DNA of 64,000 bases from assembly GCF_018070045.1 (NCBI RefSeq), contig NZ_JAGPYK010000023.1:1-64000 (forward strand), given 5' to 3'. The notes below the pieces were generated by a model. The model searched no databases. It was not told the origin of the DNA and saw only the letters and a list, made by a program, of their open reading frames with translations. Source of the DNA: Micromonospora sp. U21. GTDB lineage: Bacteria; Actinomycetota; Actinomycetes; Mycobacteriales; Micromonosporaceae. How positions within the stretch are numbered: position 1 is the stretch's first letter; each line of letters begins with the position of its first letter. The position numbers and the translations under genes were made by a program. This document shows positions 18,108 to 37,710 of this stretch, one piece after another.

Positions 18108-18138
18108 CTCGCGCAGGTAACACTGCCGCAACCAACTC

Positions 18139-18167
18139 TTGACAGTCCCTGCGGGCCGCCATATGTT
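18139..18167 (+). promoter_or_regulatory. Sigma-70-type promoter of the sugar import operon
   Basis: TTGACA at 18139-18144, a 17-base spacer and TATGTT at 18162-18167 form a near-consensus promoter. The predicted start falls at about 18174, right in front of the LacI-type operator. The leader to the first start codon is about 140 bases. Confidence 0.7.
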
Positions 18168-18176
18168 GCAGATCAC

Positions 18177-18194
18177 TGTGGTAACGATGCCACA
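18177..18194. promoter_or_regulatory. LacI-family operator downstream of the import promoter
   Basis: TGTGGTAACGATGCCACA is an 18-bp palindrome with central CG, the form bound by LacI-family repressors. It lies just after the predicted transcription start, a position that blocks elongation or initiation. A second copy sits at 13348-13365. Confidence 0.7.
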
Positions 18195-18315
18195 TCCGAT
18201 GTCCCGGGTCCGGCCCATGAGTGGCCACGGCTCCGCCGATGAGGCTGAAGCCCAGGTCACGACGGGGTTTCACGCGTGCCTGTCCTGGACATCCGCCGTC
18301 TTTGAGGAGTGACGC

Positions 18316-20630: not shown

Positions 20631-20631
20631 G

Positions 20632-21558: not shown

Positions 21559-21565
21559 GGTCAGC

Positions 21566-22537: not shown

Positions 22538-23127
22538 ACATCGATGACCACTCCCCGCTCGTCCAGCACCTGGACGATCACCTCACCGTGATCGAGTCGG
22601 TCCGCAAGCTCGTCCCCGACGTGCAAGCTCTCGCTGACGAGGTCAGTGCCCGACTGGACCGCGGTGGCATCCTCTACGCCTTCGGCAACGGCGGGTCGGC
22701 CGCCGACGCCCAGCACCTGGTCGGCGAACTCATCGGCCGGTACTGCCGCGAGCGGCGCCCGTTGCCCGCCGTGACGGTGTCCACCGACCCGACCGTCACG
22801 ACGTGCATCGGCAACGACTACTCCTTCGAGGACGTGTTCGCCCGGCAGGTCGCCGCACTGGCCCGCCCCGCCGACGTGGTGGTGGCCTTCACCAGCAGCG
22901 GTCGGTCGCCCAACGTCGTCGCCGGTCTGCGGGCCGGCCAGAACGCCGGGGCGTTGACGGTCCTGTTCACCGGGCAGCCCGACACCGGTGGCGGTCCCGC
23001 TGCCCGGTACGCCGACCGCGTGCTCGCGGTGGCCTCGGACCGCACCGCCCGGGTGCAGGAGGCGCACGTCCTGCTCCTGCACCTGCTCAGCGAGCACATC
23101 GACCGCTGGGCCGTCGCGACCGCCTGA
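22534..23127 (+). CDS. SIS-domain sugar-phosphate isomerase (GmhA-like)
   Basis: 197 residues, GTG start inside the ROK stop. The fold is a single SIS domain: ILYAFGNGGSAADAQHLVGE, LPAVTVSTDPTVTTCIGNDY, VFARQVAALARPADVVVAFT and SSGRSPNVVAGLRAGQNAGA. The GNGGSAADAQH and NDYSFEDVF blocks are those of sedoheptulose-7-phosphate isomerases (GmhA) and their DiaA-type relatives. Heptose synthesis genes are absent nearby. Coupled with a ROK kinase and mannosidases, it may act on another ketose/aldose phosphate pair, or the imported glycan may contain an unusual sugar. The exact substrate is unknown. Confidence 0.75.
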   Translation: MNIDDHSPLVQHLDDHLTVIESVRKLVPDVQALADEVSARLDRGGILYAFGNGGSAADAQHLVGELIGRYCRERRPLPAVTVSTDPTVTTCIGNDYSFEDVFARQVAALARPADVVVAFTSSGRSPNVVAGLRAGQNAGALTVLFTGQPDTGGGPAARYADRVLAVASDRTARVQEAHVLLLHLLSEHIDRWAVATA

Positions 23128-23167
23128 CCAGATCGGCGCCGCACACCGAAAGGGATCACCGTTCCCC

Positions 23168-25780
23168 ATGCACAGCGCGAACCCGCAGTCCGACACTCAG
23201 CGCCCGACCATCCCTCGCCAACCAGCGCCACCCGCCGGCCGGGCCACCCGCGGCGCCCTGCACATGATCGGCAACGCCCACATCGACGCGGTGTGGCTGT
23301 GGCCGTGGCAGGAGGGTTACCAGGAGGCGAGGGCCACCTTCCGCGCCGCACTGCAGCGCATCGACGAGTACCCGGACTTCGTCTTCACCTGCGACTCCGT
23401 CGGCTACCTCGCCTGGATCGAGGAGCACGATCCGGACCTGTTCGCGGCTCTTCAGGAGCAGGTACGCGCCGGCCGGTTCGAGATCGTCGGCGGTTGGTGG
23501 GTCGAGCCTGACTGCAACATTCCCGGGGGAGAGGGCTTCGTCCGGCACGCGCTCTACTCGCAGCGGTTCCTCGCGGACCGGTTCGGGACGATGGCCTCGG
23601 TCGGCTGCAACGTCGACCCGTTCGGGCAGAACGCCACCATTCCGCAGCTGCTGGCGAAGGCCGGCATGGACAGCTACGTCTTCATGCGCCCCCAGCCCCA
23701 TGAGGCGCAGTTGCCCGGACCGACGTTCTGGTGGCAGGCCGCCGACGGCTCCCGAGTGCTGGCCTACCGGATACCGCACGAGTACTGCAGCCCGGCGGGT
23801 CACCTGGGCGTGCACGTCGGCAAGGCGCTGGCCCAACTGCCGCACACCACCGACCCGCTGATGTGCTTCTACGGGGTCGGCAACCACGGCGGCGGCCCGA
23901 CGCGGGCGAACATCGACAGCATCCTGGACCTGGACCGCAGCGACCAGTACCCGCAGATGCTCTTCTCCACGGCACGGGCGTTCTTCGACGCGGCCACCGC
24001 AGGCGGAGACCTGCCGGAGTACGCCGGCGAGATCCAGCCACACGGGGTGGGCTGCTACTCGGCGCACTCCGGCATCAAGAAGTTGATCCGGCACACCGAA
24101 CACGCGCTCCAGGCCGCCGAGAAGTGGACCGCGGTAGCGGGTCCGGTGGCCGGCATGCCCCGGGTGACCGACCAGCTGGAGCACGCCTGGCGGCAGGTGC
24201 TGCTCAACCACTTCCACGACACCGCAGCCGGCACCGCGCTGCCCAGCGCGTACGACGACGCGCGCGACCAGCTGGGCGAGGCCCGCTCGATCGCGGCCCG
24301 CCTGCAGAACCAGGCGATCCAGCGGATCAGCCGGCAGATCGACATCCCCGACGACGAACGGATGGCCCCGCTGGCGGTGTTCAATCCGCACCCGTGGCCG
24401 GTGCGGGACACCGTCGAGGTCGAGTTCGGCAGCGTGCTCGGCAACGGTGCGATCGTGGCGGTCGACGACGCGCAGACACGGACCGTCGTCCAGGTCGCCC
24501 CGTCGGTGACGCTGACCGGCGGACGACGGCGCCTGGTCGTACCGGTGGATCTGCCTCCGCTCGGCTACCGGCTCTACCGGCTGTATTCCGACCACGGCGT
24601 GCCCGCCGACGCGTCGGTCGACGCCGAGCCGCTGCTGGAGAACGAGCACCTGCGCGTCACGGTCGACCCGGAGACCGGCTGGCTGTCCAGCCTGGCGTGC
24701 AAGGCCACCGGCGCGGAGCTGATCAACGACGACGCGGCACGCTCCGGGCATGCGGTCGTGCTGGACGACCAGACCGACACCTGGGGGCACGGCGTGGTCT
24801 CCTATCGCGATGTGATCGGCGCCTTCACGCCGGTGTCGGTACGGTGGGTCGAGTCCGGCCCGGTCCGACAGGTGCTGCGGGTGCACAGCGAGTACGGCTC
24901 GTCGACCCTGAAAGAGGAGTTCGTGCTGGCCGCCGGGGCGCGGCACATCGAGGTCCGGGTGACGATCGACTGGCACGAGCGGCTCCGGATGCTCAAGCTG
25001 CGCTTCCCGACCGCCCTGACCGACGTCACCGCGACCCACGCGATCCCGTACGGCCACCTGGAGCGCACCGCCGACGGGCATGAGACGGTCAGTCACTCAT
25101 GGGTCGACGTGTCGGGCGAACTGTCGGGCCGCCCGGCCGGCCTGTCGGTCCTCAACGACGCCAAGTACGGCGTCGACGTGACCGGCGGCGAGATCGGCCT
25201 CACCGCCCTGCGCAGCCCCGCGTACGCCTGGCACACCCCACAGCCGCTGCCCGCGGACGGCGACTACGAGGTCATGGACCAGGGCGTACAGCGGTTCACC
25301 TACCGGCTGCTCCCGCACGCCGGTGACTGGCGGGCCGCCGGGACGGTCCGCGTCGCCGCCGAACTCGATCAGCCAACGGTCGCCCTGCTGGAGTCGTACC
25401 ACCCCGGGCCGCTGCCCCAGCACCAGTCCTTCGCCGCCGTGTCCGACGCCGACAACGTGGTGATCACCGTGGTCAAACGGGCCGAGGACGGCACGGACGA
25501 CTACGTCGTACGGGGTTACGAGACAGCCGGTGCGGCGGCCAACGCCACCATCGACCTGCCGTTCCTCGGCCGTACCGTCACCGCCACGTTCGGCCCGCAC
25601 GAGATCAAGACGCTGCTGGTACCCGGCGATTCCAGCCGGCCCGTCGTCGAGACCGACCTCCTGGAACGCCCCGTGACGGCGGCCGAAGCGGCCGAAGTGA
25701 CCGCTCGGGCCGACGGGCCTGCGGTCGCCGACGGGCCTGCGGTCGCCGACGGCCCGGCGCGAGCGGGCGAATTGGCATGA
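23168..25780 (+). CDS. GH38 alpha-mannosidase
   Basis: 870 residues from the ATG at 23168, which is preceded by GAAAGGG; the frame is open further upstream inside the isomerase gene. The GH38 domain begins LHMIGNAHIDAVWLWPW near residue 31, with zinc-binding His and Asp. It continues FEIVGGWWVEPDCNIPGGE and GCNVDPFGQNATIPQLLAKA, in which the Asp of NVDPFG fits the catalytic nucleophile. RQVLLNHFHDTAAGTALP near 346 provides the further zinc His and the mid-domain. The beta-rich C-terminal half runs from about 400 to 850 (DPETGWLSSLACKATGAELI). The last residues are a low-complexity tail with two identical DGPAVA units. No signal peptide is visible, so imported mannosides are cut in the cytoplasm. 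It overlaps the next gene by ATGA. Confidence 0.92.
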   Translation: MHSANPQSDTQRPTIPRQPAPPAGRATRGALHMIGNAHIDAVWLWPWQEGYQEARATFRAALQRIDEYPDFVFTCDSVGYLAWIEEHDPDLFAALQEQVRAGRFEIVGGWWVEPDCNIPGGEGFVRHALYSQRFLADRFGTMASVGCNVDPFGQNATIPQLLAKAGMDSYVFMRPQPHEAQLPGPTFWWQAADGSRVLAYRIPHEYCSPAGHLGVHVGKALAQLPHTTDPLMCFYGVGNHGGGPTRANIDSILDLDRSDQYPQMLFSTARAFFDAATAGGDLPEYAGEIQPHGVGCYSAHSGIKKLIRHTEHALQAAEKWTAVAGPVAGMPRVTDQLEHAWRQVLLNHFHDTAAGTALPSAYDDARDQLGEARSIAARLQNQAIQRISRQIDIPDDERMAPLAVFNPHPWPVRDTVEVEFGSVLGNGAIVAVDDAQTRTVVQVAPSVTLTGGRRRLVVPVDLPPLGYRLYRLYSDHGVPADASVDAEPLLENEHLRVTVDPETGWLSSLACKATGAELINDDAARSGHAVVLDDQTDTWGHGVVSYRDVIGAFTPVSVRWVESGPVRQVLRVHSEYGSSTLKEEFVLAAGARHIEVRVTIDWHERLRMLKLRFPTALTDVTATHAIPYGHLERTADGHETVSHSWVDVSGELSGRPAGLSVLNDAKYGVDVTGGEIGLTALRSPAYAWHTPQPLPADGDYEVMDQGVQRFTYRLLPHAGDWRAAGTVRVAAELDQPTVALLESYHPGPLPQHQSFAAVSDADNVVITVVKRAEDGTDDYVVRGYETAGAAANATIDLPFLGRTVTATFGPHEIKTLLVPGDSSRPVVETDLLERPVTAAEAAEVTARADGPAVADGPAVADGPARAGELA
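25720..25763. repeat. Short tandem repeat at the 3' end of the GH38 gene
   Basis: Two 18-bp copies of GACGGGCCTGCGGTCGCC in tandem plus a partial third encode DGPAVA DGPAVA DGPA at the disordered C-terminus. Confidence 0.8.
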
Positions 25781-28314
25781 CCCAGGTGTCCAGCCTCGAT
25801 GCGGGCTGGCAGTTGCGCGGATTCCTCGGCGACGACTGGCAGCTGCACCGGGCCCAACTGCACGCCCGCGACAGCCGCGACGACACGCAGCGATGGGTGC
25901 CCGCCCGGGTGCCCGGCAGCGTGCTGGCGGATCTGCTGGCCGCTGGCCAGATATCCGACCCGTACGTCGGCACGCAGAGCCTGCTGTCGGAATGGGTGCC
26001 GCAGCGGACCTGGGTGTACCGCACCAGGCTGCGCACGCCCGGGCTCGCCGGCGGCGAGCGCGTCTTCCTGGAGTTCGACGGCATCGACTACGCGGGATCC
26101 GTCTACCTGGACGGCGAACGCATTGCGACGCACGAGGGCACCTTCGTTCCACTGGTGGTCGAGGTGACCGGGCGACTCGGTCCGGGCGAGCACAGTCTGG
26201 CCGTGGTCATCGATCCCGCCCCGGACAGCGAACCGCAGGTCGGCTACACGGCCGCGGTCCGCGTCCACAAGGGTCGGATGGGCTACGGCTGGGACTTCTG
26301 CCCTCGGCTGGTGCACCAGGGCCTCTGGGCGCCGGCCCGGATGCGGACCACCGGGCCGATGCGGCTGGCCGACGTGTGGGCGCGAACCACCGTGACGGAC
26401 ACGGGTGGGCGGGTGACGATCACGCTGCAGGTCGACGGCGACGTCACCGCAGCGACCGCGGCGTGCACGCTGAGCGACCCGGACGGCGTTCCCGTCGCCG
26501 CGGCGACCGTACCGATGAAACGGGCGACCACCGAGCTCACCCTCGACGTCGAGTCGCCTCGGCGGTGGGAGGTCAACGGGTGGGGCGAGCCGCACCGCTA
26601 CACGCTGCACACTGTGCTGCACGACCGCGACGGGCGGCGCAGCGACGACAACGAGACGCGGGTGGGCTTCCAGGACGTCCACTTCCGCCGCGACGCCGAC
26701 GCCCCGCCAACCTCGCTGCCCTACCGGCTCGTGGTGAACGGCCACCCGACCGACATCAAGGGTTGGAACTGGGTACCCGCCGACGCCCTCTACGGCGCGG
26801 TCGACGAAGCCCGGCTGCGCCACCTGCTCGGGCTGGCCCGGGACGCCGGGGTGACGATGCTGCGGGTGTGGGGCGGCGGCCTCATCGAGAGTGAAACCTT
26901 CTACGACCTGTGCGACGCCTACGGCATCCTGGTCTGGCAGGAGTTCGCCCAGTCCAGCTCCGGGATGCGCAGCGTGCCCAGCGACGACAAGGCATTCGTC
27001 GCCCGGATGGTCGCCGAGGCCGAGCGCATCGTGCCCGCCCGACGCAACCATCCCAGCCTGGCCATCTGGTGCGGCGGGAACGAGTTGCAGCGGGCCGACG
27101 GCGTACCGCTGACCGACGAGGATTCCCCCGTGCTGGCGGCCTTGCACGACGTGGTGGCGCGGCTCGACCCGGACCGACAGTGGCTGCCGACCTCCCCGTC
27201 CGGTCCGGTGTTCGGCAACACCCTGGACAGCATCCGGAGCGGTCCGGAACACCACGACGTGCACGGACCGTGGGAGCACCAGGGCCTGTCCGACCACTAC
27301 CGGCTCTACGACGAAGGCCGCGGCCTGCTGCTCAGCGAGTTCGGTGTCGAGGGCATGAGCAACATGCGCGCCATCGAGTCGGTCGTGCCCGAGCCGGACC
27401 GGAAAATCCCGACGGCCGGCAACCCGATCTGGGACCACCTCGGTCGGTGGTGGAACAACGAACCGCTGGTGCAACAGACGTTCGGCGGAAGGCTCGGGGA
27501 CCTCGCGGCGCTGTCCCGGGCCAGCCAGTTCCTGCAGGCGGACGGGCTGCGCTACGCGGTCGAGGCCAACCGGCGCCGGCCGGACAGCTGCGGCGTACTG
27601 CCCTGGCAGCTCAACGAGTCGTTCCCGAACGGTTGGTGCACCGCCGCCGTCGACTACTTCGGCGAGCCGAAGGCCGCCTACCACTACGTACGCCGGGCGT
27701 ACCGGCCGCTGCACGTGTGCGCGGCCCTGCCCGCGCCCCGGGCCAGCGGTGACCAGTTCACCGCCACCGTGTGGGCATGGTGGGACACCGCGTCCGGCCC
27801 GGTGTCCGTCACCGCACGGGTGTTGTGTCTCGACGGCCGCGAGATCGCGGTGGTGCACTGGTCGGCCCCGCTCGCCCAGGGGCGACCGCACCGGTTCGGT
27901 GAGATCCGGTGCGCGGCCAGCGAGTTGGGCGGGGGACCCTTCCTGCTGGATCTGTCGGTGCACGCCCACGCCGCGGCGCAGACCAACCGCTACCTGCTCA
28001 CCGCCGGTGCCGACTTCGGCGAACTGCTGACCCTGCCACCAGCCCGTATCACCACCCGGCTGCACACCGCCGGCCCGACCTGGACGCTGCGCCTGCGCCA
28101 CGAGGCGGGGCCGGCCGTCCCGTTCCTGCGGCTGCTCGACGCCCGCCCGGCCGGCGACGCGGGCTGGCTGAGCTGGGACGACAACGCCATCGATCTGCTG
28201 CCCGGTGAGGAACGTGTGCTGCACGGCCGATGGGACGGTGTGCCGCCCGAGCACCGGCGGATACGCCTCGACGGCTGGAACCTGCCCGCCCAGATGCTGA
28301 CGGAGGTCCACTGA
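25777..28314 (+). CDS. GH2 beta-mannosidase-like enzyme
   Basis: 845 residues. The N-terminal jelly-roll of GH2 shows WQLRGFLGDDWQLHRAQLHA, WVPARVPGSVLADLLAAGQI, WVYRTRLRTPG and VFLEFDGIDYAGSVYLDGER. The barrel has GWNWVPADALYG, TMLRVWGGGLIESETFYDLC and AYGILVWQEF. It then has SLAIWCGGNELQ, with the acid/base Glu of GGNE near residue 433, and LLLSEFGVEGMSNM, with the nucleophile Glu of SEFG near 519. VWGGG and WCGGNE are features of beta-mannosidases rather than beta-galactosidases. Together with GH38 it would remove alpha- and beta-linked mannose. It is cytoplasmic (no signal) and overlaps its neighbours on both sides by 4 and 1 bases. Confidence 0.88.
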   Translation: MTQVSSLDAGWQLRGFLGDDWQLHRAQLHARDSRDDTQRWVPARVPGSVLADLLAAGQISDPYVGTQSLLSEWVPQRTWVYRTRLRTPGLAGGERVFLEFDGIDYAGSVYLDGERIATHEGTFVPLVVEVTGRLGPGEHSLAVVIDPAPDSEPQVGYTAAVRVHKGRMGYGWDFCPRLVHQGLWAPARMRTTGPMRLADVWARTTVTDTGGRVTITLQVDGDVTAATAACTLSDPDGVPVAAATVPMKRATTELTLDVESPRRWEVNGWGEPHRYTLHTVLHDRDGRRSDDNETRVGFQDVHFRRDADAPPTSLPYRLVVNGHPTDIKGWNWVPADALYGAVDEARLRHLLGLARDAGVTMLRVWGGGLIESETFYDLCDAYGILVWQEFAQSSSGMRSVPSDDKAFVARMVAEAERIVPARRNHPSLAIWCGGNELQRADGVPLTDEDSPVLAALHDVVARLDPDRQWLPTSPSGPVFGNTLDSIRSGPEHHDVHGPWEHQGLSDHYRLYDEGRGLLLSEFGVEGMSNMRAIESVVPEPDRKIPTAGNPIWDHLGRWWNNEPLVQQTFGGRLGDLAALSRASQFLQADGLRYAVEANRRRPDSCGVLPWQLNESFPNGWCTAAVDYFGEPKAAYHYVRRAYRPLHVCAALPAPRASGDQFTATVWAWWDTASGPVSVTARVLCLDGREIAVVHWSAPLAQGRPHRFGEIRCAASELGGGPFLLDLSVHAHAAAQTNRYLLTAGADFGELLTLPPARITTRLHTAGPTWTLRLRHEAGPAVPFLRLLDARPAGDAGWLSWDDNAIDLLPGEERVLHGRWDGVPPEHRRIRLDGWNLPAQMLTEVH

Positions 28315-30191
28315 TGGCGACGACCTGGGTGGACGAGGCACGACTGACAGTCAGCGGCCTGGACCCGGAGCTCTTCGAGGTGGAGACACACCAGGCGCCC
28401 TCCACCGCCGGCGGCGTCACCGTGACGATCACCGCAACCTATCGGGGCGCTGTACCGGCCGAGGCACGGCTGCGGGTGTCGGCCACCCTGGCCGACGCCG
28501 ACGATCCGTACTGGCTCATTCCCGGGCTGTTCTACGGCGAGAACCGCCCCGCGGACAACGGGCGACTCTTCCCGCGCTTCGCGCGAACCGCGGACGAGCC
28601 CGCCGACCCGCAGCGGTTCGTGTCCCCCGCGTGGAGCTTCCGGGCCGACCGGGCGGCCACCCCCGCGGTGTTCGCCTGGGGGGCGTCCGGAGGGCTGGCC
28701 CTGGCGGTCGACGAACACAGCCCGCTCGGCCTGACCGGGATCGGCTTCGCGCACGACGCCCGCATCGCACTGGTGCACGCCGACTTCCCGTACGTCGAGG
28801 CGCCGGTCAGCTACGTCGGCAGCCAGCAACCCGCGACACCGCTGGCGCAGACCCACCTCTGGCAGCCGGGCGAGCGGCACACGGTCGAGGTGTGCCTCTA
28901 CCGGCTGCCGGCCGATCGGCACGCGTACGCGCCGGTGCTGCGTGAGCGACACGCCCGGTCCGCCACCGGGCCGCTGCACCCGTGGGTCGGGGTGGTGGAG
29001 GCGGCCGAGTTGGCCGCGTACGGCCTGCACCGGTGGCACTTCCGCCCGGATCCGGCCGTGCTGCTGGAGACGGCGGCGTTCGACCGCGAGTTCAACGACA
29101 ACGTCAAGGGCCTCGGTGACCGAGGCGCGATGCACGTCGCCTGGGTCAGCGGCATCCCGTACGCGCATGCGCTGCTGGCGCACGGCCGCCGCCGCGGCAA
29201 CGTCGACCACGTGGCGGCGGGCGCGGCGGTCATCGACCACATCTGCGCCAACCTCGCGCCGGCGGGGACGTTCTGGGGGCAGTGGACCGCCGACCGCGGC
29301 TGGGGCCAGAGCTGGACGCCGGTCCGCGGCGGCCTGCACGCCCGTACCCTGGCCGAGGCGACCCTGTTCCTGCACCGCGCGGTCCGCGCCGAACAGGCTG
29401 CCGGCACGCCACGTCCCGGCTGGCTGGACGCGGTGCGGAGCAACCTCGACGTCGCGGTACGCAACCAGCGCGCCGACGGCAACCTCGGCAGCCTGCTGCA
29501 CGCCGCCGACGGGAGAGTGTTGTCCTGGGCCGGCGCGGCCGGGCTGACCTGGGTCGCCGCGCTCGCCGAGGCGCGCGACCTCGACCCGGCCTACCTGGCC
29601 GCCGCCCGGCGCGGTGGCGACTACTACGGCCGGTTCGTGCACGAGGAGTTCCTGCACGGCGCTCCCGAGGATGTCGACCTGGCGCCGACCTCGGAGGACG
29701 GCTACGCCGCCATCCTGGCGTACGTCGCGCTGTGGCGGGCCACCGGCGAACACCGCTGGCTGGACCTGGCCCGCCGTGCCGCGGATTGGATGCTGACGTT
29801 CCGCTACAGCTACGACGTGACCTTCGACGAGCACACCCTGCTCGGGCGGTACGGCTTCCGCAGCCGCGGCGCCGACCAGGCCTCGCCCAGCAACCAGCAC
29901 CTGCACTCGTACGGTCTGATCTGCGTGCCCGAGATGGTGGAACTGGCCGCCGCGACCGGTGATCCGTACTACCTGGACCGGACCAGGGAGAACCTGGCCT
30001 GTTTCCGGCAGTTCATCGCCCGCGCCGACGGCGACTTCAACGCCTACCGGGGCATGGCCAGCGAACGGTATTACCAAACGGCCTGCTTCCAGGCCAAGGG
30101 CATGCTGCTGACGCTGTCGCACGCATGGAGCGTCGGCGTGCTGCTGCTCGGCTGCGAGGCGGCCCTCAACCTTCCGGAGGTCACCTGGTGA
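28314..30191 (+). CDS. Six-hairpin (alpha/alpha-toroid) glycosidase-like protein
   Basis: 625 residues, the ATG sharing a base with the GH2 stop. The first 230 residues are beta-rich (TVSGLDPELFEVETHQAPST, VTITATYRGAVPAEARLRVS, YWLIPGLFYGENRPADNGRL). The rest is a string of helical hairpins with aromatic and acidic ends: WGQWTADRGWGQSWTPVRGG, SEDGYAAILAYVALWRATGE, RWLDLARRAADWMLTFRYSY and NQHLHSYGLICVPEMVELAA. This is the six-hairpin toroid of many glycosidases and lyases. I cannot assign a CAZy family or the catalytic acids with confidence. Its position between GH2 and GH1 genes says it acts on the same glycan. Confidence 0.65.
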   Translation: MATTWVDEARLTVSGLDPELFEVETHQAPSTAGGVTVTITATYRGAVPAEARLRVSATLADADDPYWLIPGLFYGENRPADNGRLFPRFARTADEPADPQRFVSPAWSFRADRAATPAVFAWGASGGLALAVDEHSPLGLTGIGFAHDARIALVHADFPYVEAPVSYVGSQQPATPLAQTHLWQPGERHTVEVCLYRLPADRHAYAPVLRERHARSATGPLHPWVGVVEAAELAAYGLHRWHFRPDPAVLLETAAFDREFNDNVKGLGDRGAMHVAWVSGIPYAHALLAHGRRRGNVDHVAAGAAVIDHICANLAPAGTFWGQWTADRGWGQSWTPVRGGLHARTLAEATLFLHRAVRAEQAAGTPRPGWLDAVRSNLDVAVRNQRADGNLGSLLHAADGRVLSWAGAAGLTWVAALAEARDLDPAYLAAARRGGDYYGRFVHEEFLHGAPEDVDLAPTSEDGYAAILAYVALWRATGEHRWLDLARRAADWMLTFRYSYDVTFDEHTLLGRYGFRSRGADQASPSNQHLHSYGLICVPEMVELAAATGDPYYLDRTRENLACFRQFIARADGDFNAYRGMASERYYQTACFQAKGMLLTLSHAWSVGVLLLGCEAALNLPEVTW

Positions 30192-31576
30192 GCCCGAACG
30201 AGCCCAGCGAGCAAGCGACGAACACGTTCCCGTCCGGCTTTCTGTGGGGCGCCGCGACCTCGTCCTACCAGGTCGAAGGCGCCGTACGCGAGGACGGCCG
30301 GCAACCCTCCATCTGGGACACCTTCACCGTCGAGCGCGGGATGGATTCCGGTGAGACCGCATGCGACCACTACCACCGCTGGCCCGCCGACGCCGACCTG
30401 ATGGCGCAGCTCGGGATGAACGCGTACCGGTTCTCGCTGGCCTGGCCGCGCATCGTCCCCGACGGGACCGGCGCGGTGAATCGGGCGGGCCTGGCACACT
30501 ACGACCGGATGGTCGACGGTCTGCTCGAGCGGGGCATCACGCCGGTGCCGACGCTGTACCACTGGGACCTGCCGCAGGCGCTGCAGGACCGGGGTGGGTG
30601 GACCAATCGGGGGACCACCGACGCGTTCGCCGCCTACACCGAGGTGTGCCTCGACGCGCTCGGCGATCGGGTCGACACCTGGTTGACGGTCAACGAGCCG
30701 TGGGTGGTGTCGGTGCTGGGGTACCGGCTCGGCCTGCACGCGCCGGGGGAGCGGGACCTGCGCACGTCGTTGCTCGTCGCGCACCATCTGTTGCTGGCCC
30801 ATGGCGTGGCGACGCAGCGCATCCGCGAGCGCCGGCCGACCGCTCGGGTCGGCATCCCGCTGAGCCTGTTTCCCAACTATCCGGTCACCGACGATCCGGC
30901 CGACGCCGCCGCGGCGTGGGGGTCCGACGGCTACACCAACCGCTGGTTCCTCGATCCGGTGTTGCGCGGCCGGTACCCGGCGGACACCGTCGAGCTGTTC
31001 GAGCGGCTGGTCGGCCCGATGGACTGGGTGCAGCCCGGCGACCTCGACCTGATCGGCGCCCGTCCGGACCTCATCGGCGTCAACTACTACACCCGCCGGC
31101 GGATCAGCGCGGCGCCCACGGATGGCCTGCCCTGGCGCGTTCTGCCGGCGCAGGCGGGCGTCCCGGTCACCGACAGCGGCTGGGAAGACGTCCCCGAGGT
31201 GTTCTACGACCTGTTGGTACGCCTGTACCGCGACTATGACGTCCCGCTGCTGATCACCGAGAACGGCGGGGTCTGGAACGCCGAGCCCGACCCCGACGGG
31301 CGGGTACGGGACACCGGGCGGGTACACGCGCTGCGCGAGCACCTGCTCGCCCTGTCCCGCGCCGTCGACGACGGCGCGCAGGTGCTGGGCTACCTGCACT
31401 GGTCGCTGCTGGACAACCTGGAGTGGGCCGAGGGGTACACCCAGCGCTTCGGCCTCGTCCACGTCGACCGGGCTACCCAGCGGCGCACCCTCAAGGACAG
31501 CGCCCACTACTACGCTGCCGTGATCGCCGCCAACCAGGTCGTCGACGCGACCGACGACGTCGCGGGGAAACCGTGA
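30188..31576 (+). CDS. GH1 beta-glycosidase
   Basis: 462 residues from a GTG that overlaps the preceding stop by 4 bases. All GH1 marks are present: FPSGFLWGAATSSYQVEGAV at the start, PSIWDTF, YRFSLAWPRIVPDGTGAVN, PTLYHWDLPQALQDRGGWTN, WLTVNEPWVVSVLGY with the acid/base Glu near residue 167, and GVNYYTRR. LLITENGGVWN carries the nucleophile Glu near 357, and GYLHWSLLDNLEWAEGYTQR with FGLVHVD closes the domain. There is no signal peptide. It could act on beta-glucosides or beta-mannosides and closes the import operon. Confidence 0.92.
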   Translation: MSPNEPSEQATNTFPSGFLWGAATSSYQVEGAVREDGRQPSIWDTFTVERGMDSGETACDHYHRWPADADLMAQLGMNAYRFSLAWPRIVPDGTGAVNRAGLAHYDRMVDGLLERGITPVPTLYHWDLPQALQDRGGWTNRGTTDAFAAYTEVCLDALGDRVDTWLTVNEPWVVSVLGYRLGLHAPGERDLRTSLLVAHHLLLAHGVATQRIRERRPTARVGIPLSLFPNYPVTDDPADAAAAWGSDGYTNRWFLDPVLRGRYPADTVELFERLVGPMDWVQPGDLDLIGARPDLIGVNYYTRRRISAAPTDGLPWRVLPAQAGVPVTDSGWEDVPEVFYDLLVRLYRDYDVPLLITENGGVWNAEPDPDGRVRDTGRVHALREHLLALSRAVDDGAQVLGYLHWSLLDNLEWAEGYTQRFGLVHVDRATQRRTLKDSAHYYAAVIAANQVVDATDDVAGKP

Positions 31577-31621: not shown

Positions 31622-32278
31622 TCAGCCGGCGGCGAACGGGCGCAGCTGCCGTACGCCGGATCGGGGCGAGCTGAGCACCGGCACCGGCACCTGATCGGCG
31701 GGCAACGCGTCGACCACCCGCGCCATGCTCGCCTGCGCCAGCACCAGCACGTCGACCTCACCGGCCAGGCGGCGCACCTCGGCCGCGACGAGGTCGTCGT
31801 GCCGGCCGGGAAAGCCGCCCCGGAGTGCCTCGAACGCGCCGGGGCACATCGACTCGCGGATCTCGGCCGGCTCGCCTCGCTCGTCGGACTTACGCCGCAG
31901 CAGGTCCCGGGTGGGCTGCAACGTGGCGGCGAGGGTCGCCAGTACACCGATGCGCCGGCCGAGGGTGACGGCCCGCTCGGCCATCGGCTCGTCGACCCGG
32001 TAGATCGGGATGCCCACCTCGGCCCGGGCCTGTTCGGCCGCCTCCCCGATCGACGAGCAGGTAACCAGCACGGCCTCGGCGCCGGACTCCGCCGCGAAGG
32101 CCGCGTAGCTGGCCACCCGGCGGCGGGTACGCGGAAGCATGCCGTGCTCGATGGTGTCGCGGAGCAGGGTCTCGTCCACGATGTTGACCGCGTCCACCGC
32201 GCCCACCTCGGTGGGGAGCAGGTCGGCGAAGACGGCGGGCAGGCCGGTGACGGTGTGCAGCAGGCAGATCCTGGTCAT
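31622..32278 (-). CDS. Asp/Glu racemase-superfamily protein
   Basis: 218 residues, last gene of a five-gene leftward operon; its start overlaps the isomerase stop by ATGA. EAVLVTCSSIGEAAEQAR carries the first catalytic Cys of the Asp/Glu/hydantoin racemase fold, and RIGVLATLAATLQPTRDLLR follows. In the second half the usual catalytic Cys position is VDVLVLAQASMARV, i.e. Gln, as in several racemase relatives that act as isomerases, decarboxylases or unknown enzymes. Activity as a true racemase is therefore doubtful. Its place with sugar-acid genes suggests a carbon-acid substrate. Confidence 0.75.
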   Translation of the reverse strand: MTRICLLHTVTGLPAVFADLLPTEVGAVDAVNIVDETLLRDTIEHGMLPRTRRRVASYAAFAAESGAEAVLVTCSSIGEAAEQARAEVGIPIYRVDEPMAERAVTLGRRIGVLATLAATLQPTRDLLRRKSDERGEPAEIRESMCPGAFEALRGGFPGRHDDLVAAEVRRLAGEVDVLVLAQASMARVVDALPADQVPVPVLSSPRSGVRQLRPFAAG

Positions 32279-33078
32279 ACGGGGCGCTCCTCGGCCGGGC
32301 GCAGTCGCGGGTGTCGCGCGGTGACGGCGCGCAGGCTCGCCGCCGAGGGCATCGTCGGCTCGTACTCCAGACCGAGCCCGCCCCGGTAACCGGCCGCGGT
32401 CAGGGCCGCGAGCAGCGCGTCGACGTCCAGGTCGCCGGTGCCCGGCTCGTGGCGGCCCGGGTGGTCGGCGAGCTGGACGTGGCCGAGCCGGCTGCCGGCC
32501 GCCGCCACGGCACGGGAGACGTCGTCGCCCATGGCCGCGACGTGGTAGGCGTCCAGCTGAAGTTTGACCGCCTCGTGGTCGAGTTCATCGAGGGCGGCGA
32601 GTACGTCGACGACGCGGGGGAACAGGTAGCCGGGTATGTCGTGGTCGTTGATCGGCTCGATGACGAGGGTCCGGGCGTACCGGGCGGCGAGGTCGGCGGC
32701 CCAGCGCAGGTTGACGGTCAGGCACCGCACCTGATCGGGCTCGTCAAGCCCCGGCAGCCGCCGGCCGGCGAGGACGTTCACCAGCGGGCAGTCGAGGTCG
32801 CGGGCCAGGTCCAGCGCCTGCCGCAGCTGGTCGCGCCACCGTACGGTCAGCCGGGGATCGTTGCCGTAGCCGCGCTCGCCGGCGGCGAGGTCACCGGCGT
32901 CCATGTTCAGCAACGCGACCTGTATGCCCGCCTCCCGCACCAGCCGGGTCACCTCATCGGGTGCCAGCGGGGGCCACGGGAACTCCACCCGGTGGAAGCC
33001 CGCCTCGGCCGCGGCGGCGAACCGTTGCCGCCACGGCAGTTCGGTGAACAGCAGGCCCAGGTTGACCACGGCGTACAT
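32275..33078 (-). CDS. TIM-barrel sugar isomerase (hydroxypyruvate/2-oxo-tetronate isomerase-like)
   Basis: 267 residues from the ATG at 33078, which overlaps the aldolase stop. The sequence has the AP-endonuclease-2/xylose-isomerase-like barrel: YAVVNLGLLFTELPWRQRFA, AAAEAGFHRVEFPWP, CPLVNVLAGRR, TLVIEPINDHDIPGYLFP, VKLQLDAYHVAAMGDD, LGHVQLADHPGRHEPGTGDL and GGLGLEYEP. The metal-binding Glu, Asp, His and Glu are in the expected IEPIN, QLDAYH, DHPGR and LEYEP places. The Hyi/OtnI group converts hydroxypyruvate or 2-oxo-tetronate. The DUF1537 kinase two genes away supports an OtnI-like role. Confidence 0.8.
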   Translation of the reverse strand: MYAVVNLGLLFTELPWRQRFAAAAEAGFHRVEFPWPPLAPDEVTRLVREAGIQVALLNMDAGDLAAGERGYGNDPRLTVRWRDQLRQALDLARDLDCPLVNVLAGRRLPGLDEPDQVRCLTVNLRWAADLAARYARTLVIEPINDHDIPGYLFPRVVDVLAALDELDHEAVKLQLDAYHVAAMGDDVSRAVAAAGSRLGHVQLADHPGRHEPGTGDLDVDALLAALTAAGYRGGLGLEYEPTMPSAASLRAVTARHPRLRPAEERPV

Positions 33079-33968
33079 CAGCGGGCCTCGGTCCACGGGC
33101 GGCCGTACCGGTCGACGGTTTCGGTCAGCCACCGGAGCCGGGCGACGGACTCCTCGCGAAGTGCCGCCGCCGGGTTGGCCGTGGCGAGGGCGTCGCGCCA
33201 CAGTGCCCGGCCGGCGAGCATCCCGGACGCTCCGGCGCGGCAGGCGGCGTCGACGGCGTTCGGGAAGTCCACCGCCTCCACGCCATTGGAAAGCACCACC
33301 CAGGGCCGGCCGAGCTGCCGGTCGAGCTTTTCGCAGGCGGCCACGAGCTCACCGAGGTCACCGCGGCCCCGGCGTGGTACCTGCGCCTTGTAGAGACTCG
33401 GCCCGAGCGGGCCGAGGGCGGCAGCGGCGTCGAGGATGGCCGCGTCGAGGTCGAAGCTGTGCTGCCCGGGCGCGGGGACGGCGACCGGTTCGAGTACGGA
33501 GAGCAGCCCCGCCTGCCGGCAAAGCTCGACGAAACGGCCGGCCATCGCCACACGCCGGTCCTCCCCGCCGTCTCGCTTCCATATCACCAACAGCTTCAAC
33601 GCCACCACGCCGTCGCGCCGGGCCTGGTCAAGGTCGATGTCCCCGTCGATGGCGGTGTCGTCCACCGCCGCGCCGGGCGGCTGGGACAGCGCGTCGACGG
33701 CGAGGATCAGTCCGCAGTCGACCGGCAGCCGCCGGTCCCGGACGAGTTCGGCGTACGCGTAGTGCCGGTCGATGAGGAACGCCGAGGCGAGTGGTGCCAG
33801 CGTGGTGGCGACCTCGAGCTTGAACGACGTGAGCGCGGCGTCGTCGGCTGGGTGGCCCTGCTCGCTGAGCATGGTGCGCAGGCTTTCCCGCTGGTCCATG
33901 GCGACCATGGCAAACGTTCCGGTGGCGCGGGCGAGCCGGTCCAGGGTCAGGGGCGGGGGGACGGTCAC
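33078..33968 (-). CDS. Class I aldolase, YihT/LacD-like
   Basis: 296 residues. The start FAMVAMDQRESLRTMLSEQG resembles tagatose-bisphosphate (LacD) and sulfofructosephosphate (YihT) aldolases. Next comes FKLEVATTLAPLASAFLIDR, and VVALKLLVIWKR contains the lysine expected to form the Schiff base. VVLSNGVEAVDFPNAVDAAC and GASGMLAGRALWRDALA form the last strands of the barrel. Which sugar phosphate it cleaves is not visible. The FGGY kinase gene directly upstream (stop and start overlap by ATGA-type coupling) is the likely supplier of its phosphorylated substrate. Confidence 0.75.
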   Translation of the reverse strand: MTVPPPLTLDRLARATGTFAMVAMDQRESLRTMLSEQGHPADDAALTSFKLEVATTLAPLASAFLIDRHYAYAELVRDRRLPVDCGLILAVDALSQPPGAAVDDTAIDGDIDLDQARRDGVVALKLLVIWKRDGGEDRRVAMAGRFVELCRQAGLLSVLEPVAVPAPGQHSFDLDAAILDAAAALGPLGPSLYKAQVPRRGRGDLGELVAACEKLDRQLGRPWVVLSNGVEAVDFPNAVDAACRAGASGMLAGRALWRDALATANPAAALREESVARLRWLTETVDRYGRPWTEAR

Positions 33969-35431
33969 GAGGTTTCCTCACTGTCGGGAGACGGGCTGCT
34001 GGCGGCCGTGGCCAACGGCAGGAACCGCGACCGGTACGCCGCTTCCCATTCGGGCGCGGCTGCGGACGCCGGTTGCGGCGGTGGCCCCGGTGGGGGCACC
34101 TCCGGCACGCCGATCGCCCGTCCGGCGAGTTGGGCCGCGCCGAGCGCGGCGCCCTGGTGCCCGGACAGCACGACGACCGGGGCCGGGGTGAGCTGAGTCT
34201 TGATCCACATCCAGGTGGGGTTGGCGGTAGGCCCGCCGAAGACCCGCACCGCGTCGGGTTGGCGACCGCTGATGCTCACTTGGGTCTCAATCATCCAGCG
34301 CACCTGCATGCACAACCCCTCGAGGACGGCACGGCCGATGTCGGGGAGGGTGTGCTCCGGACGGATGCCGTGGAAGGACAGCGTTCGGTGCGGGTCCGGC
34401 TCCGGGCTGGCCCGCCCGTGCAGGTACGGCTGCACGGTGATGCCGGTGGGCGGGCGGGCCGGCGGGCCGACGAGGTCAGTGAACCACTCGTGCCGGTTCG
34501 CCTGCCCGGCTGGCGCGAGCCGGTCGAGGAGCCACTCGACCAGTCCGCCGCTGCTGGACAGGCCGCTGATCAGGCAGAACGAACGGCCATCGACGAACGG
34601 GCCGACGGAGTTTCCGGTGGCTCGCGTGGTCGGGGGTGGCACCGCGACGACGGGGGTGACGATCGCTTCCGCCGTACCCATCGAATCGGCCACCTGGCCG
34701 GGGACCCGGACCCCGGCGGCCCAGGCGGCGGCCAGGTGGTCGTGTCCGGCGACGATGACCGGGGTGCCGGCGGGCAGACCGGTACGCCGTGCGGCGGTCG
34801 CGGTCACCCGCCCGGCGACCTGGTCGGCGGCGAGCACCGGCGGCAGTTGGTCGGGCCGCAGTCCGGCCAGGTCAAGCAGGTCAGGCAGGTACCCCCCGGC
34901 CGTGATGTCGAATACGCCGGTCCGGGCGGCCAGGGTCGGGCTGGTGGTGACGGTCCCGGTGAGGGCGGCCACGATCAGGTCGGCGGCGTTCGCCCAGCAG
35001 GCCATCCGTCTCAGCACGTCCGGGTCGTGCTGGCGCAGCCAGATCCAGCGGGCCAGCGGCAGCTTCGCGCTCGGGTGCAGGCCGGTGGTGGCGAAGAAGG
35101 CGGGGCGGCCGACCGCCTGGCCCAGCTGGTCGGCCTGCCGACCAGCGCTGCGGTCGCGCCAGTGCAGCAGCTCGCCGACGGGGGCGCCCGCGGCGTCCAG
35201 CGGTACGCCCGTCTCCGCCATGCTGGCCACGCCGAGCGCGAGCGGCGGTACGTCAGCGGCCGACACGCAGTCCGCGAGCAGCCGCAGCGCGGTGTCCCGC
35301 AGCGCCTCGGCGTCGGGTGGGGTGGCGGCCTGGCGCTGGGCCACCGGGCTGCCGTCCGTGCGGTACACGCCGGCCTTGGTGTGCGTGGTGCCCACATCCA
35401 GGCCGGCCAGCAGCGGCTCTGCCACGTTCAC
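33965..35431 (-). CDS. FGGY-family carbohydrate kinase
   Basis: 488 residues. The GTG at 35431 overlaps the stop of the upstream kinase gene by 4 bases; the longer open frame upstream runs inside that gene and is not used. FGGY marks: PLLAGLDVGTTHTKAGVYRT at the N-terminus, LALGVASMAETGVPLD, ELLHWRDRSAG, TPVIVAGHDHLAAAWAAGVR, DSMGTAEAIVTP and AVRVFGGPTANPTWMWIKTQ near the C-terminus. These kinases act on xylulose, rhamnulose, fuculose, gluconate, glycerol and similar substrates; the specificity is open. The C-terminal 40 residues are Pro/Ser-rich. Confidence 0.85.
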   Translation of the reverse strand: MNVAEPLLAGLDVGTTHTKAGVYRTDGSPVAQRQAATPPDAEALRDTALRLLADCVSAADVPPLALGVASMAETGVPLDAAGAPVGELLHWRDRSAGRQADQLGQAVGRPAFFATTGLHPSAKLPLARWIWLRQHDPDVLRRMACWANAADLIVAALTGTVTTSPTLAARTGVFDITAGGYLPDLLDLAGLRPDQLPPVLAADQVAGRVTATAARRTGLPAGTPVIVAGHDHLAAAWAAGVRVPGQVADSMGTAEAIVTPVVAVPPPTTRATGNSVGPFVDGRSFCLISGLSSSGGLVEWLLDRLAPAGQANRHEWFTDLVGPPARPPTGITVQPYLHGRASPEPDPHRTLSFHGIRPEHTLPDIGRAVLEGLCMQVRWMIETQVSISGRQPDAVRVFGGPTANPTWMWIKTQLTPAPVVVLSGHQGAALGAAQLAGRAIGVPEVPPPGPPPQPASAAAPEWEAAYRSRFLPLATAASSPSPDSEETS

Positions 35432-36762
35432 TGGTCGCCCTGGTCGCCCTGGTCGCCCTGGCGAGACCGTCCGGGGGGCACCGCGGCGATCCGGCCGAGG
35501 ATGTCCCGCAGGGTGCTGTCGGCGCCGACGTTGCCGGGTACGACCACGTAGGACTGGCTTTTCCCGGACGTGCGCAGATCCCAGACCGGAACGCCGGGCA
35601 GGACCTGTCCGCGCACCCGGGCGCCGGTCGCGCCCAGCGCGTCGGTGGCGAGCCGGGCGGACGTGATGCCTCCCTTGGCGATGACGAGGTCCACGTCGGC
35701 GGCGAGGTGTCGCACGGTCTCGACGAGGGTGTCCATCAGCAGCTCCGGTGCCGCGGGGACGCTGCCATGCCGCGGCGTCCGGTCGGTGGCCACCAGCGCC
35801 TGGCCGTCGCGTTCGAGCCGCTCGCGTACCGCTTTGGCCAGCAGTTGATCGTCGCCGCGCTGTGCGCCGACCGGAATGTCCACTCGTTGATGCCACAGCT
35901 CGCCCAACGCCCGCAGTTGGCAGGTGCTGGCAGCAGTGAACGAGCCGCAGGCGATCAGGACCCGGCCGGGGGGTGACAGTTCGAGACGCGTCAGCGGCCG
36001 TGTGGACAGGCCGGCCAGCGCGGCCGCGAGCGAGGCGGCGCAGCGGACCACCACCCGGGCGCCCCGGGCCTGCGCCCTGATCAGGCCGGCCGCGATGGCC
36101 AGGACATCGGCGTCGCTGACGCAGTCGGGAATTACCACCGCCTCAGGCACCGCGCCCAGCAACGCCTCGGCGACCGCGTCGGGTCCGCGCTCATGCAACC
36201 GGGCGAGCGGCACGGTTAACCCATGCCGGCGGCCGCCGCTGACCTCGCTCACCCAGTCGCGGAGGTGTCGGCTGCGGTAGCCAAAGTTCGGGTCCCGGGC
36301 GAACTCGGTGTCCGCCACCGGAACTGCCCCGGAATCGGTTTGCAGATAATGGATCCCGTCTCGGGTGAAGCGTCCGCCGTCGAGGAAGGCGGGCACGAAC
36401 AGCACCGGTGTGTGCGGCGCCACGGCCTCGGCCTCGGCGATCACGTGACCGCGTAGCGTCGAATCCCCGCGCAGGATCAGGGTCGCGGGTCGCTCGGCCG
36501 CCCGGGCGGCCGCCGCCACCGTGCGGGCGATGTCGCCGACCAGCGCGGTCGCCCCGCGTTCGGTGAACGCCCGACTGTTGGACAGGACGAATGTCGAGCG
36601 CTGCGTCGAGGCGAAGAAGTCGTCGAACGCGGCCCGGTCGGGTCGCAGGATCACGTCGACATCGCTGACGGCCTGGGTGCCCGTGGGGTCGTCGTCGACG
36701 ATCACCTTCGGTCGCAGGTCGGCCGCGATTTCGGCCCGCCATGCGGCGGCGGATTCCCCCAC
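35428..36762 (-). CDS. Four-carbon acid sugar kinase family protein (DUF1537)
   Basis: 444 residues, first gene of the leftward operon. The N-terminus has the diagnostic VIVDDDPTGTQAVSDVDVIL, and LILRGDSTLRGHVIAEAEAV follows. The C-terminal nucleotide-binding half has RVLIACGSFTAASTCQLRAL and VDLVIAKGGITSARLATDAL. Members (OtnK, DtnK, LtnK) phosphorylate 3-oxo-tetronates or tetronates. With the OtnI-like isomerase this suggests breakdown of a C4 sugar acid, but the usual class II decarboxylase (OtnC) is missing and a class I aldolase is present instead. The C-terminus is a (GDQ)n repeat encoded by 9-bp units. Confidence 0.85.
   Translation of the reverse strand: MGESAAAWRAEIAADLRPKVIVDDDPTGTQAVSDVDVILRPDRAAFDDFFASTQRSTFVLSNSRAFTERGATALVGDIARTVAAAARAAERPATLILRGDSTLRGHVIAEAEAVAPHTPVLFVPAFLDGGRFTRDGIHYLQTDSGAVPVADTEFARDPNFGYRSRHLRDWVSEVSGGRRHGLTVPLARLHERGPDAVAEALLGAVPEAVVIPDCVSDADVLAIAAGLIRAQARGARVVVRCAASLAAALAGLSTRPLTRLELSPPGRVLIACGSFTAASTCQLRALGELWHQRVDIPVGAQRGDDQLLAKAVRERLERDGQALVATDRTPRHGSVPAAPELLMDTLVETVRHLAADVDLVIAKGGITSARLATDALGATGARVRGQVLPGVPVWDLRTSGKSQSYVVVPGNVGADSTLRDILGRIAAVPPGRSRQGDQGDQGDQ
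35431..35460. repeat. 9-bp tandem repeat at a gene junction
   Basis: CTGGTCGCC-type units repeat three times at 35431-35460, encoding the (GDQ)n end of the DUF1537 kinase. They stop exactly at the overlapping GTG start of the FGGY kinase gene. Confidence 0.85.
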
Positions 36763-36802
36763 GCCACGCCCCCTGTCCGTCGCCGACTAACGACCCCACT
36801 GT

Positions 36803-36838
36803 CGAGCCGATGACCCGAAGTTGTCAAGAGCCGGACAA
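36803..36838. promoter_or_regulatory. Promoter and inverted repeat of the acid-sugar operon
   Basis: On the reverse strand TTGACA (36827-36822) followed after about 18 bases by GACAGT resembles a promoter for the DUF1537 operon. TTGTC at 36821-36825 and GACAA at 36834-36838 form an inverted repeat over the -35, a good place for the DeoR regulator encoded divergently at 36901. Confidence 0.5.
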
Positions 36839-36900
36839 ATTTCGCCAGATAAAGGCCATCAGGATCGTGGAAGGCATCCCGACACCGGTACCGTCTAGCC

Positions 36901-37710
36901 GTGACTGATCGAGAGCGCGCCGCCGAGCGGCAGCTGCGCTACACCTCCGCGCCCCAGCGCCGGGAGGAGATCCTGCGCCGGATGCGCCGGACCGGCTACG
37001 TGTCGGCCCCCGAGCTCAGCGCCACGTTGTCGGTATCTGACCGCACCGTGCGCCGCGACCTGCAGCGACTCGCCGACCTAGGCCTCGCCGAACTCGTCTA
37101 CGGCGGCGCGCTCCCGCCGGGCGGCATGCCACCCGGCTCCCCGTTCGGCGCCCGTTCCCAGGCACAGTCCCGTCCGAAGCGGGCCATCGCCCACCACGCG
37201 CTGCAGTTCGTCGAGGCCGGCGCCACCATTGGCATCGACGCGGGCACCACCACCCTCGAGCTGGCTCGACTGCTGCCGCCCGACAGCGACATCACAGTGG
37301 TTACCCACTCGCTGCCCGCGATGGCGGCACTCGGCGAGCGCCCGGACGCCACACTCATCGGTCTCGGCGGCCTCCACCACCCGGCCACCCGGACGTTCAC
37401 CGGACCGGACACGGTGACCGCGATCAGCCGGCTCCGGGTGCACACCTTCTTCCTGGCCGCGAGCGGTCTGACCCACCGCGGCGCATACTGCGGCACCCCG
37501 CTGGACGCCGAGGTCAAGCGGGCCTTCATCGGCATCGCCGACCGGGTTGTGCTGTTGGCGGACTCGTCCAAGCTGCGCCAGACCGCACCTGTACCGATCT
37601 GCGACCTGAACCAACTGGACGCGGTCATCACCGACGACGCGCTCCCCGACGCCGATCGTGCCCAACTGGCCTCAATCATCACCCTGTTGATCGCCGCCAC
37701 CGAAGCTTGA
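36901..37710 (+). CDS. DeoR/GlpR-family transcriptional regulator
   Basis: 269 residues, GTG start. The winged helix is canonical: REEILRRMRRTGYVSAPELS followed by ATLSVSDRTVRRDLQRLADL and GLAELVYGGALP. The sugar-phosphate sensor domain has ATIGIDAGTTTLELARLLPP, ITVVTHSLPAMAALGERPDA, FFLAASGLTHRGAYCGTPLD and VVLLADSSKLRQTAPVPICD. It is transcribed away from the acid-sugar operon across a 138-bp gap that contains an inverted repeat, so it probably controls that operon and itself in response to a phosphorylated intermediate. Confidence 0.9.
   Translation: MTDRERAAERQLRYTSAPQRREEILRRMRRTGYVSAPELSATLSVSDRTVRRDLQRLADLGLAELVYGGALPPGGMPPGSPFGARSQAQSRPKRAIAHHALQFVEAGATIGIDAGTTTLELARLLPPDSDITVVTHSLPAMAALGERPDATLIGLGGLHHPATRTFTGPDTVTAISRLRVHTFFLAASGLTHRGAYCGTPLDAEVKRAFIGIADRVVLLADSSKLRQTAPVPICDLNQLDAVITDDALPDADRAQLASIITLLIAATEA

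Follow-up and report, generated by a model that had tools for sequence, protein, structure and literature searches.

A conserved Micromonospora operon joining a YihT-like aldolase, two kinases and a one-cysteine racemase-like protein, with a tentative route for keto-sugar acid breakdown

A five-enzyme operon with a divergent regulator was analysed in a 64,000-nucleotide stretch of Micromonospora sp. U21 (the window, to which all coordinates refer; gene calls were home-made, and genes may be missed or misplaced). It occupies positions 31622-36762 of the minus strand and reads, from 36762, DUF1537 kinase, FGGY kinase, YihT-like class I aldolase (ALD), hydroxypyruvate isomerase-like protein (HYI) and one-cysteine Asp/Glu-racemase-like protein (RAC). 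The operon is real and conserved, and is a variant of known pathway kinds. All six genes at the place given by an earlier first-pass annotation, made from the sequence alone, were recovered with Pfam, and the four tight overlaps from which it had deduced a single operon were found: 4 bp each at DUF1537/FGGY, FGGY/ALD and HYI/RAC, and 1 bp at ALD/HYI if the ATG at 33078 is taken as the start of HYI in place of 33096, the start set by the gene caller.

The operon is read, tentatively and with a probability of roughly 0.42, as the lower part of a single catabolic locus spanning 13365-37710, in which YihT-like cleavage feeds HYI and RAC and then the DUF1537 kinase. Gene content, linkage and subfamilies were observed directly, and from them we infer the following steps. 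An ATP-binding cassette (ABC) transporter would import a mannose-containing oligosaccharide, which would be trimmed inside the cell, and the mannose would pass through a ROK kinase and a SIS isomerase. The leftover keto-sugar acid would be phosphorylated, here by FGGY, and split by ALD, giving dihydroxyacetone phosphate (DHAP) together with a short aldehyde acid. From the latter, HYI and RAC may form a 3-oxo acid with the correct configuration, which would be phosphorylated by the DUF1537 kinase; in relatives an OtnC-like enzyme would decarboxylate the product to a second DHAP, and in the window version the final decarboxylation would be spontaneous or due to another enzyme. The conserved FGGY-ALD-RAC order, the ties between RAC and DUF1537 genes, a RAC-OtnK fusion, the linkage seen in another actinobacterial family (f22) and the retention of Lys194, Glu160 and Arg254 in ALD favour this reading.

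The operon works like a splice of the L-threonate (otn) route and the sulfoglycolytic Embden-Meyerhof-Parnas (sulfo-EMP) pathway, and the comparison with both, which the first-pass annotation had proposed, shows that it lacks defining features of each. The otn route comprises LtnD, OtnI, OtnK and OtnC and has a three-step variant, according to the accessible part of its description (PMC12540250). The window shares with it a DUF1537 kinase and an OtnI/Hyi-family isomerase, and relatives hold OtnK with an OtnC-like gene at 16 of 55 loci; it differs in its distant DUF1537 kinase, in the added RAC and YihT-like aldolase, in having no recognised OtnC and in the lack of an operon dehydrogenase, no LtnD-type dehydrogenase domain being found by Pfam in the six operon proteins. 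No report of a DUF1537-FGGY-aldolase or YihT-FGGY combination, nor of this locus, was returned by a literature search.

The aldolase and its related loci

For ALD, 394 genomes of the class were searched at a match threshold of E 1e-20, with matches in 45 genomes; places found by genome search are lower bounds. A contig scan gave 55 related ALD loci, several of which end at contig ends, so that counts there are lower bounds as well. FGGY was present at 44 and RAC at 40 of them, FGGY-ALD-RAC in this order at 37, DeoR at 28 and HYI at one. A DUF1537 gene was found at 24 (21 of OtnK type and three of window type), and OtnK together with an OtnC-like gene at the 16 mentioned above. The nearest named relative locus is that of Micromonospora veneta (L033), whose aldolase is 85-86% identical.

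The solved structure nearest to ALD was YihT (1to3; 219 bits, E 6.4e-64, phmmer); no LacD structure exceeded 42 bits with the same program. The tagatose (LacD) route was rejected on these scores, and of the YihT/LacD type given in the first-pass annotation only the YihT half is retained. Four NCBIfam models were matched, every one a tagatose-bisphosphate aldolase model. In a tree of 84 rows, rooted by midpoint only, a 61-row window clade was separated with 99/99 support from 23 rows comprising YihT, a PfkB-linked set and Chloroflexi and Steroidobacteraceae rows. Lys194, Glu160, Lys125, Arg27, Lys50, Arg139 and Arg254 were kept in 56/56 window-set and 21/21 YihT-set rows. Lys194 was assigned as the Schiff-base lysine by alignment, and Gln196 stands where Glu would be expected: Gln occupies this position in 55/56 window-set rows (the exception being L084) and in 7/7 f22 rows, Glu in 21/21 YihT-set rows and also in the aligned LacD. 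The retained charged residues would suit an anionic substrate head, residue roles in YihT and LacD being assigned by alignment. On sequence, ALD thus appears closer to YihT than to LacD, yet in a clade of its own.

It is highly improbable that the operon serves sulfo-EMP (sulfoquinovose) and simply has an unusual kinase. YihS, YihV and YihT make up sulfo-EMP in the accessible parts of its descriptions (PMC9594981, PMC8873060), and the window resembles it in that a YihT-type class I aldolase comes after a kinase, with YihT itself as the closest solved structure of ALD; moreover, the predicted barrel of X9, a protein of the neighbouring operon, resembles mannose isomerase/2-epimerase (Z 22), the fold kind given for the sulfoquinovose isomerase YihS in the accessible text of PMC9594981. 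However, the window kinase belongs to FGGY and not to PfkB, neither a PfkB kinase nor a PF07221 protein was found among ten locus proteins scanned, and ALD is set apart from the YihT/PfkB side both by the 99/99 split and by the Glu-to-Gln exchange. Stretches that do look like sulfo-EMP, as judged from their gene content, belong to ALD relatives of about 40-48% identity (L095-L099, L102-L104), six of eight of which carry a PfkB-like kinase gene, as does an annotated Arthrobacter plasmid. A YihT-like aldolase in an actinomycete should not, on its own, be taken to show sulfoquinovose use.

Some related loci have other surroundings. Haem biosynthesis genes surround FGGY-ALD-RAC at L081, and other pathway genes are absent there; two Planctomonas loci (L074, L077) have the same neighbour clusters, with three extra genes between in L077.

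The racemase-like protein, the kinases and the isomerase

RAC belongs to a subfamily that has one cysteine of the usual pair and is linked to DUF1537 kinases. It shares with the Asp/Glu racemase superfamily (PF01177) the fold and the first catalytic-type Cys, and differs in having no Cys at the second site expected by position. C74 was kept in 42/42 aligned rows, and the second-Cys site, equated by position, read AQASM in 40/42, the remaining two rows being short. The lack of the second Cys described in the first-pass annotation was borne out: LAQASM stands at the expected site, and together with C74 was invariant in 39/39 aligned rows. Further members (45/45) likewise kept the first Cys and had xQxS(M/L), with no Cys, at the second site. 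The AlphaFold2 model of RAC (predicted local distance difference test score, pLDDT, 96.6) had aspartate racemase 1jfl as its best structural match (VIA Z 21.2, 2.6 Å over 207 residues).

Among the 394 genomes, 26/49 RAC places had a DUF1537 gene no more than 10 kb away, where gene number and genome size would predict 0.27; as the genomes are related, this expectation is not a probability. RAC beside ALD was near DUF1537 at 11/16 places, and RAC elsewhere at 15/33 against 0.15 expected; L123 was counted as lacking DUF1537 despite an OiaK-like fragment at its contig end. In L145, RAC and OtnK form a single 642-residue frame. The order HYI-RAC-OtnK-OtnC was found in L149 and RAC-OtnK-OtnC in L147 and L148; RAC accompanies OtnK and an OtnC-like gene in L109, L144 and L147-L149, OtnK alone in L108, and window-type DUF1537 in L105 and L119. 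The RAC genes of L132-L142 have no DUF1537 within 10 kb, and most of these loci (not L134 and L139) have a different recurring neighbourhood in common.

A RuBisCO-like cluster was found near RAC at ten loci. In L110, L114, L117, L121, L122, L124, L127 and L131, RAC relatives adjoin OiaK-like DUF1537 and RuBisCO-like OiaX-like genes, often with glycoside hydrolase (GH) family GH127, as in apionate-type OiaK/OiaX loci; the two RuBisCO-like proteins scored stayed far under the curated cut-off, however (258 and 404 of 700 at best), and no RuBisCO-like protein was found in the U21 genome. An unassigned RuBisCO-like pathway is possible for these neighbourhoods.

The window DUF1537 kinase fell below the cut-offs of the curated models (69 of 450 bits for DtnK, 22.9 of 350 for OtnK, NF043035) and gave no credible alignment to the OtnK of relatives (best E 0.006), which passed the cut-off of 350 in 5/5 cases tested (368-498 bits). 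Its own subfamily includes L033, L034, L035 and the Chloroflexi metagenome-assembled genome (MAG) L105 (42%); in L119, RAC has a 38% relative as its neighbour. Two distant DUF1537 subfamilies are thus joined to the same ALD-RAC pair, which argues that DUF1537-type phosphorylation belongs to the pathway. FGGY matched XylB best among NCBIfam models, below cut-off (163.5 of 380 bits), and passed no equivalog cut-off. Autoinducer-2 (lsr) processing was rejected, since FGGY scored 92.8 of 528 bits to the autoinducer-2 kinase model and ALD matches only tagatose-bisphosphate aldolase models. The hybrid pathway with FGGY as a second kinase, as first proposed, stands as a kinase-aldolase arm plus a tetronate-like arm; FGGY itself is not universal in such loci.

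That these two arms are independent seems distinctly improbable. FGGY-ALD would then yield DHAP and either glyceraldehyde or lactaldehyde from an ordinary ketose 1-phosphate, and RAC-HYI-DUF1537 would deal separately with a four-carbon acid from the same glycoside. One Kribbella genome does have FGGY-ALD apart from RAC-DeoR-OtnK-OtnC, 15 DUF1537-near RAC places have no window-clade aldolase beside them, and ALD occurs without RAC at 15/55 loci. These separations are set against the FGGY-ALD-RAC order at 37/55 loci and against the seven f22 loci, all without FGGY, where ALD and RAC nevertheless stand together (7/7).

Genome searches for a decarboxylase covered an assembly estimated at 100% completeness and 0.77% contamination, with a single DUF1537 gene. 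No OtnC-type (PF00596) gene lies in the operon, and none resembling OtnC was recognised in the rest of the genome, in which PF00596 occurs at two places: C26, which reads by eye as AraD with an adjoining AraB-like kinase, and C17, a 742-residue frame that was left unexamined. PF01116, the F_bP_aldolase type of OtnC that goes with the three-step variant of the otn route, also occurs at two places, C48 and C10, the latter unexamined; C48 is an improbable OtnC of this type, since its surroundings read by eye as a tagatose/galactosamine-type operon (PfkB-like kinase, DeoR, ABC, SIS). The absence of OtnC pointed out in the first-pass annotation applies to the operon and, as far as recognised, to the genome; it does not characterise the system as a whole, as the relatives with OtnK and an OtnC-like gene demonstrate.

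HYI remained under the cut-offs of both isomerase models, scoring higher with Hyi (238.6 of 353) than with OtnI (202.6 of 325). The top score with a hydroxypyruvate isomerase model would fit a hexuronate version of the route, which we consider somewhat unlikely: FGGY would make the 1-phosphate of a keto-hexuronate (fructuronate or tagaturonate), from which ALD would release DHAP and tartronate semialdehyde, HYI would give hydroxypyruvate, RAC would racemise, and the window-type DUF1537 kinase would phosphorylate the C3 acid. In its favour, the structural matches of X9 take in, apart from GH76, glucuronyl hydrolases and a polysaccharide lyase, and 9/55 loci, eight in Nonomuraea and one in [Actinomadura] parvosata, have a cluster of rhamnogalacturonan lyase family 11, one member of which was tested and matched PF21348; the lyase there adjoins DeoR or the aldolase (L061, L063, L064, L065, L066, L067, L070, L080, L082). 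G367 has RAC and window-type DUF1537 about 6 kb from UxaC, and the accessible part of a Paenarthrobacter study describes a region for xanthan (mannose-glucuronic acid-glucose) with GH38, sugar kinase, LacI, ABC and flavin adenine dinucleotide (FAD) oxidoreductase genes (PMC12772297). The substrate described for OtnK and OtnC is, however, a C4 acid (PMC12540250, in the part available); the only PF02614 (UxaC) gene of U21 lies on another contig in a seemingly ordinary hexuronate operon, and no UxaC was found in two Actinoallomurus genomes and the Chloroflexi MAG, all of which have the window-type kinase.

Linked mannoside genes and features of the locus

Convergent with the operon, a gene set at 13365-31576, listed in Table 1, clusters with genes of relatives. 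In f22, ALD-RAC is followed by a solute-binding protein, two ABC genes and GH2 at 7/7 loci, with GH1 next at 6/7; a divergent OtnC-OtnK-DeoR group is present at 5/7, and none of the seven shows FGGY. Extended f22 loci held GH31L, FAD oxidoreductase, MBL, LacI, ROK, SIS and GH38 in 5/5 cases, with a few other genes interspersed, and X9 in 4/5, the fifth stretch stopping at GH38; GH31L, MBL, LacI, ROK, SIS and GH38 lie there on the same contig as ALD and RAC and no more than about 25 kb from them (the middle 6 kb of G174 being unread). A 307-310-residue gene adjacent in f22 was rejected as a kinase, as it reads by eye as an NAD-dependent epimerase-like protein. The Chloroflexi MAG has HYI, window-type DUF1537, RAC, X9 and GH1 all within 10 kb. 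As nearly the same genes share a single locus in f22, the convergent operons of the window may be taken as two halves of one unit, and the joining of the operon with the mannoside genes, put forward in the first-pass annotation, is probable.

The xanthan region of Paenarthrobacter ilicis, in the accessible part of its description (PMC12772297), is like the window in GH38, LacI, ABC and sugar kinase, and like f22 in its FAD oxidoreductase; it differs in that aldolase, racemase and FGGY are words absent from its text, and in that no PL8 (polysaccharide lyase family 8) or GH9 protein was found among ten window proteins scanned.

The X9 model (mean pLDDT 73.4) comprises a beta-sandwich and an (alpha/alpha)6 barrel, with VIA Z 26.3 to a GH76 structure; glucuronyl hydrolases, a polysaccharide lyase and mannose isomerase/2-epimerase were also matched. 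The sequence profile of X9 gave no credible solved homologue, and the model is possibly that of a new glycosidase family. GH2 (25777-28314) is presumably of the beta-mannosidase/exo-glucosaminidase type, a label based on its domain names. The MBL protein (13365-15179) is conserved in the locus and has no obvious role.

Between DeoR and DUF1537, a candidate operator/promoter, AATTTGTCC-N5-TTGACA, has counterparts at the same position in L033 and L035 in an alignment of three intergenic regions, the pattern being derived from the window site itself. No second copy, for example ahead of the mannoside operon, was found in the window at up to three mismatches. Beside the DeoR end of the locus, the stretch 38491-39603 holds an open reading frame resembling a TnpB-type transposon protein (labelled by eye); frames of its cluster (c55, three members) also occur in L048 and L082.

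Table 1 Features of the locus in window coordinates
Feature	Position	Strand	Basis or remark
Double metallo-beta-lactamase-fold protein (MBL), 604 residues	13365..15179	+	Cluster of L083:14894-16729 (PF00753, PF12706)
GH31-like glycosidase (GH31L)	15176..16996	+	12-row profile (window included) vs GH31 alpha-galactosidase 8j53, 65 positions, E 2.2e-6
LacI-family regulator	16980..18107	+	In one cluster with an L059 protein that fits LacI-family models
ABC sugar importer: binding protein and two permeases	18316..21558	+	PF01547, PF00528 clusters; second permease cluster named by eye
ROK-family sugar kinase	21566..22537	+	Clusters with L071 ROK kinase
SIS isomerase, GmhA-like	22534..23127	+	Clusters with L042 protein: PF13580, gmhA 158.6 of 209 bits
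GH38 alpha-mannosidase	23264..25780	+	PF01074, PF07748
GH2	25777..28314	+	PF22666, PF18368
X9, predicted (alpha/alpha)6-barrel enzyme	28314..30191	+	No Pfam match above cut-off
GH1 glycosidase	30188..31576	+	PF00232, 507 bits
RAC: one-cysteine Asp/Glu-racemase-like, probable keto-acid isomerase or racemase	31622..32278	-	PF01177, 65 bits
HYI: hydroxypyruvate/2-oxo-tetronate isomerase-like TIM barrel	32275..33078	-	PF01261; start taken at ATG overlapping ALD stop
ALD: YihT-like class I aldolase	33078..33968	-	PF01791
FGGY carbohydrate kinase	33965..35431	-	PF00370, PF02782
DUF1537 kinase, subfamily other than OtnK	35428..36762	-	PF07005, PF17042
Candidate operator/promoter AATTTGTCC-N5-TTGACA	36822..36846	-	DeoR/DUF1537 divergent spacer
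DeoR-family regulator, divergent from operon	36901..37710	+	PF08220, PF00455

Weight of the evidence and meaning

Several observations weigh against the proposed keto-sugar acid route. If ALD is to give a C4 aldehyde acid plus DHAP, its substrate must have seven carbons (C7), and such compounds are rare in nature. The window DUF1537 kinase is distant from OtnK, the OtnC-like relatives score 165-214 bits, under the curated cut-off of 250, and no decarboxylase for the window version was found in the genome with the PF00596, RuBisCO-like and PF01116 searches. FGGY is not a constant partner, 10/13 f22 genomes with ALD-RAC giving no window-FGGY match at E 1e-25. Nor is RAC, which was not found in 7/38 ALD genomes, two of them Kribbella with FGGY-ALD. 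Three Kribbella genomes hold RAC away from FGGY-ALD, next to DeoR-OtnK-OtnC (L109), DeoR-OtnK (L108) or neither (L107), and no DUF1537 lies within 10 kb of 23/49 RAC places. At least one of GH38, GH2, X9, GH1, GH31L and MBL was found in the flanks of only 27/55 loci, and none in those of 28/55.

On the size of the acid, a hexuronate substrate would lead to a C3 acid, fitting HYI but not OtnK-OtnC; the evidence from OtnK, together with the RAC-OtnK fusion, tips the balance slightly towards a C4 acid. A wider interpretation, which is unlikely as it stands, would make the route the equivalent of sulfoglycolysis for carboxylates: a YihT-type aldolase would split a keto-sugar acid into DHAP and the carboxylate equivalent of sulfolactaldehyde, an aldehyde acid that RAC would hand to the DUF1537 kinase, and both halves would end as DHAP, with RAC as a new enzyme class tied to DUF1537 kinases and to OtnC-like or RuBisCO-like decarboxylases.

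If the proposed route is true, it would be a new one for soil actinomycetes digesting an acidic mannose-containing glycan, and it would give a testable role to the one-cysteine Asp/Glu racemase branch that accompanies DUF1537 kinases.

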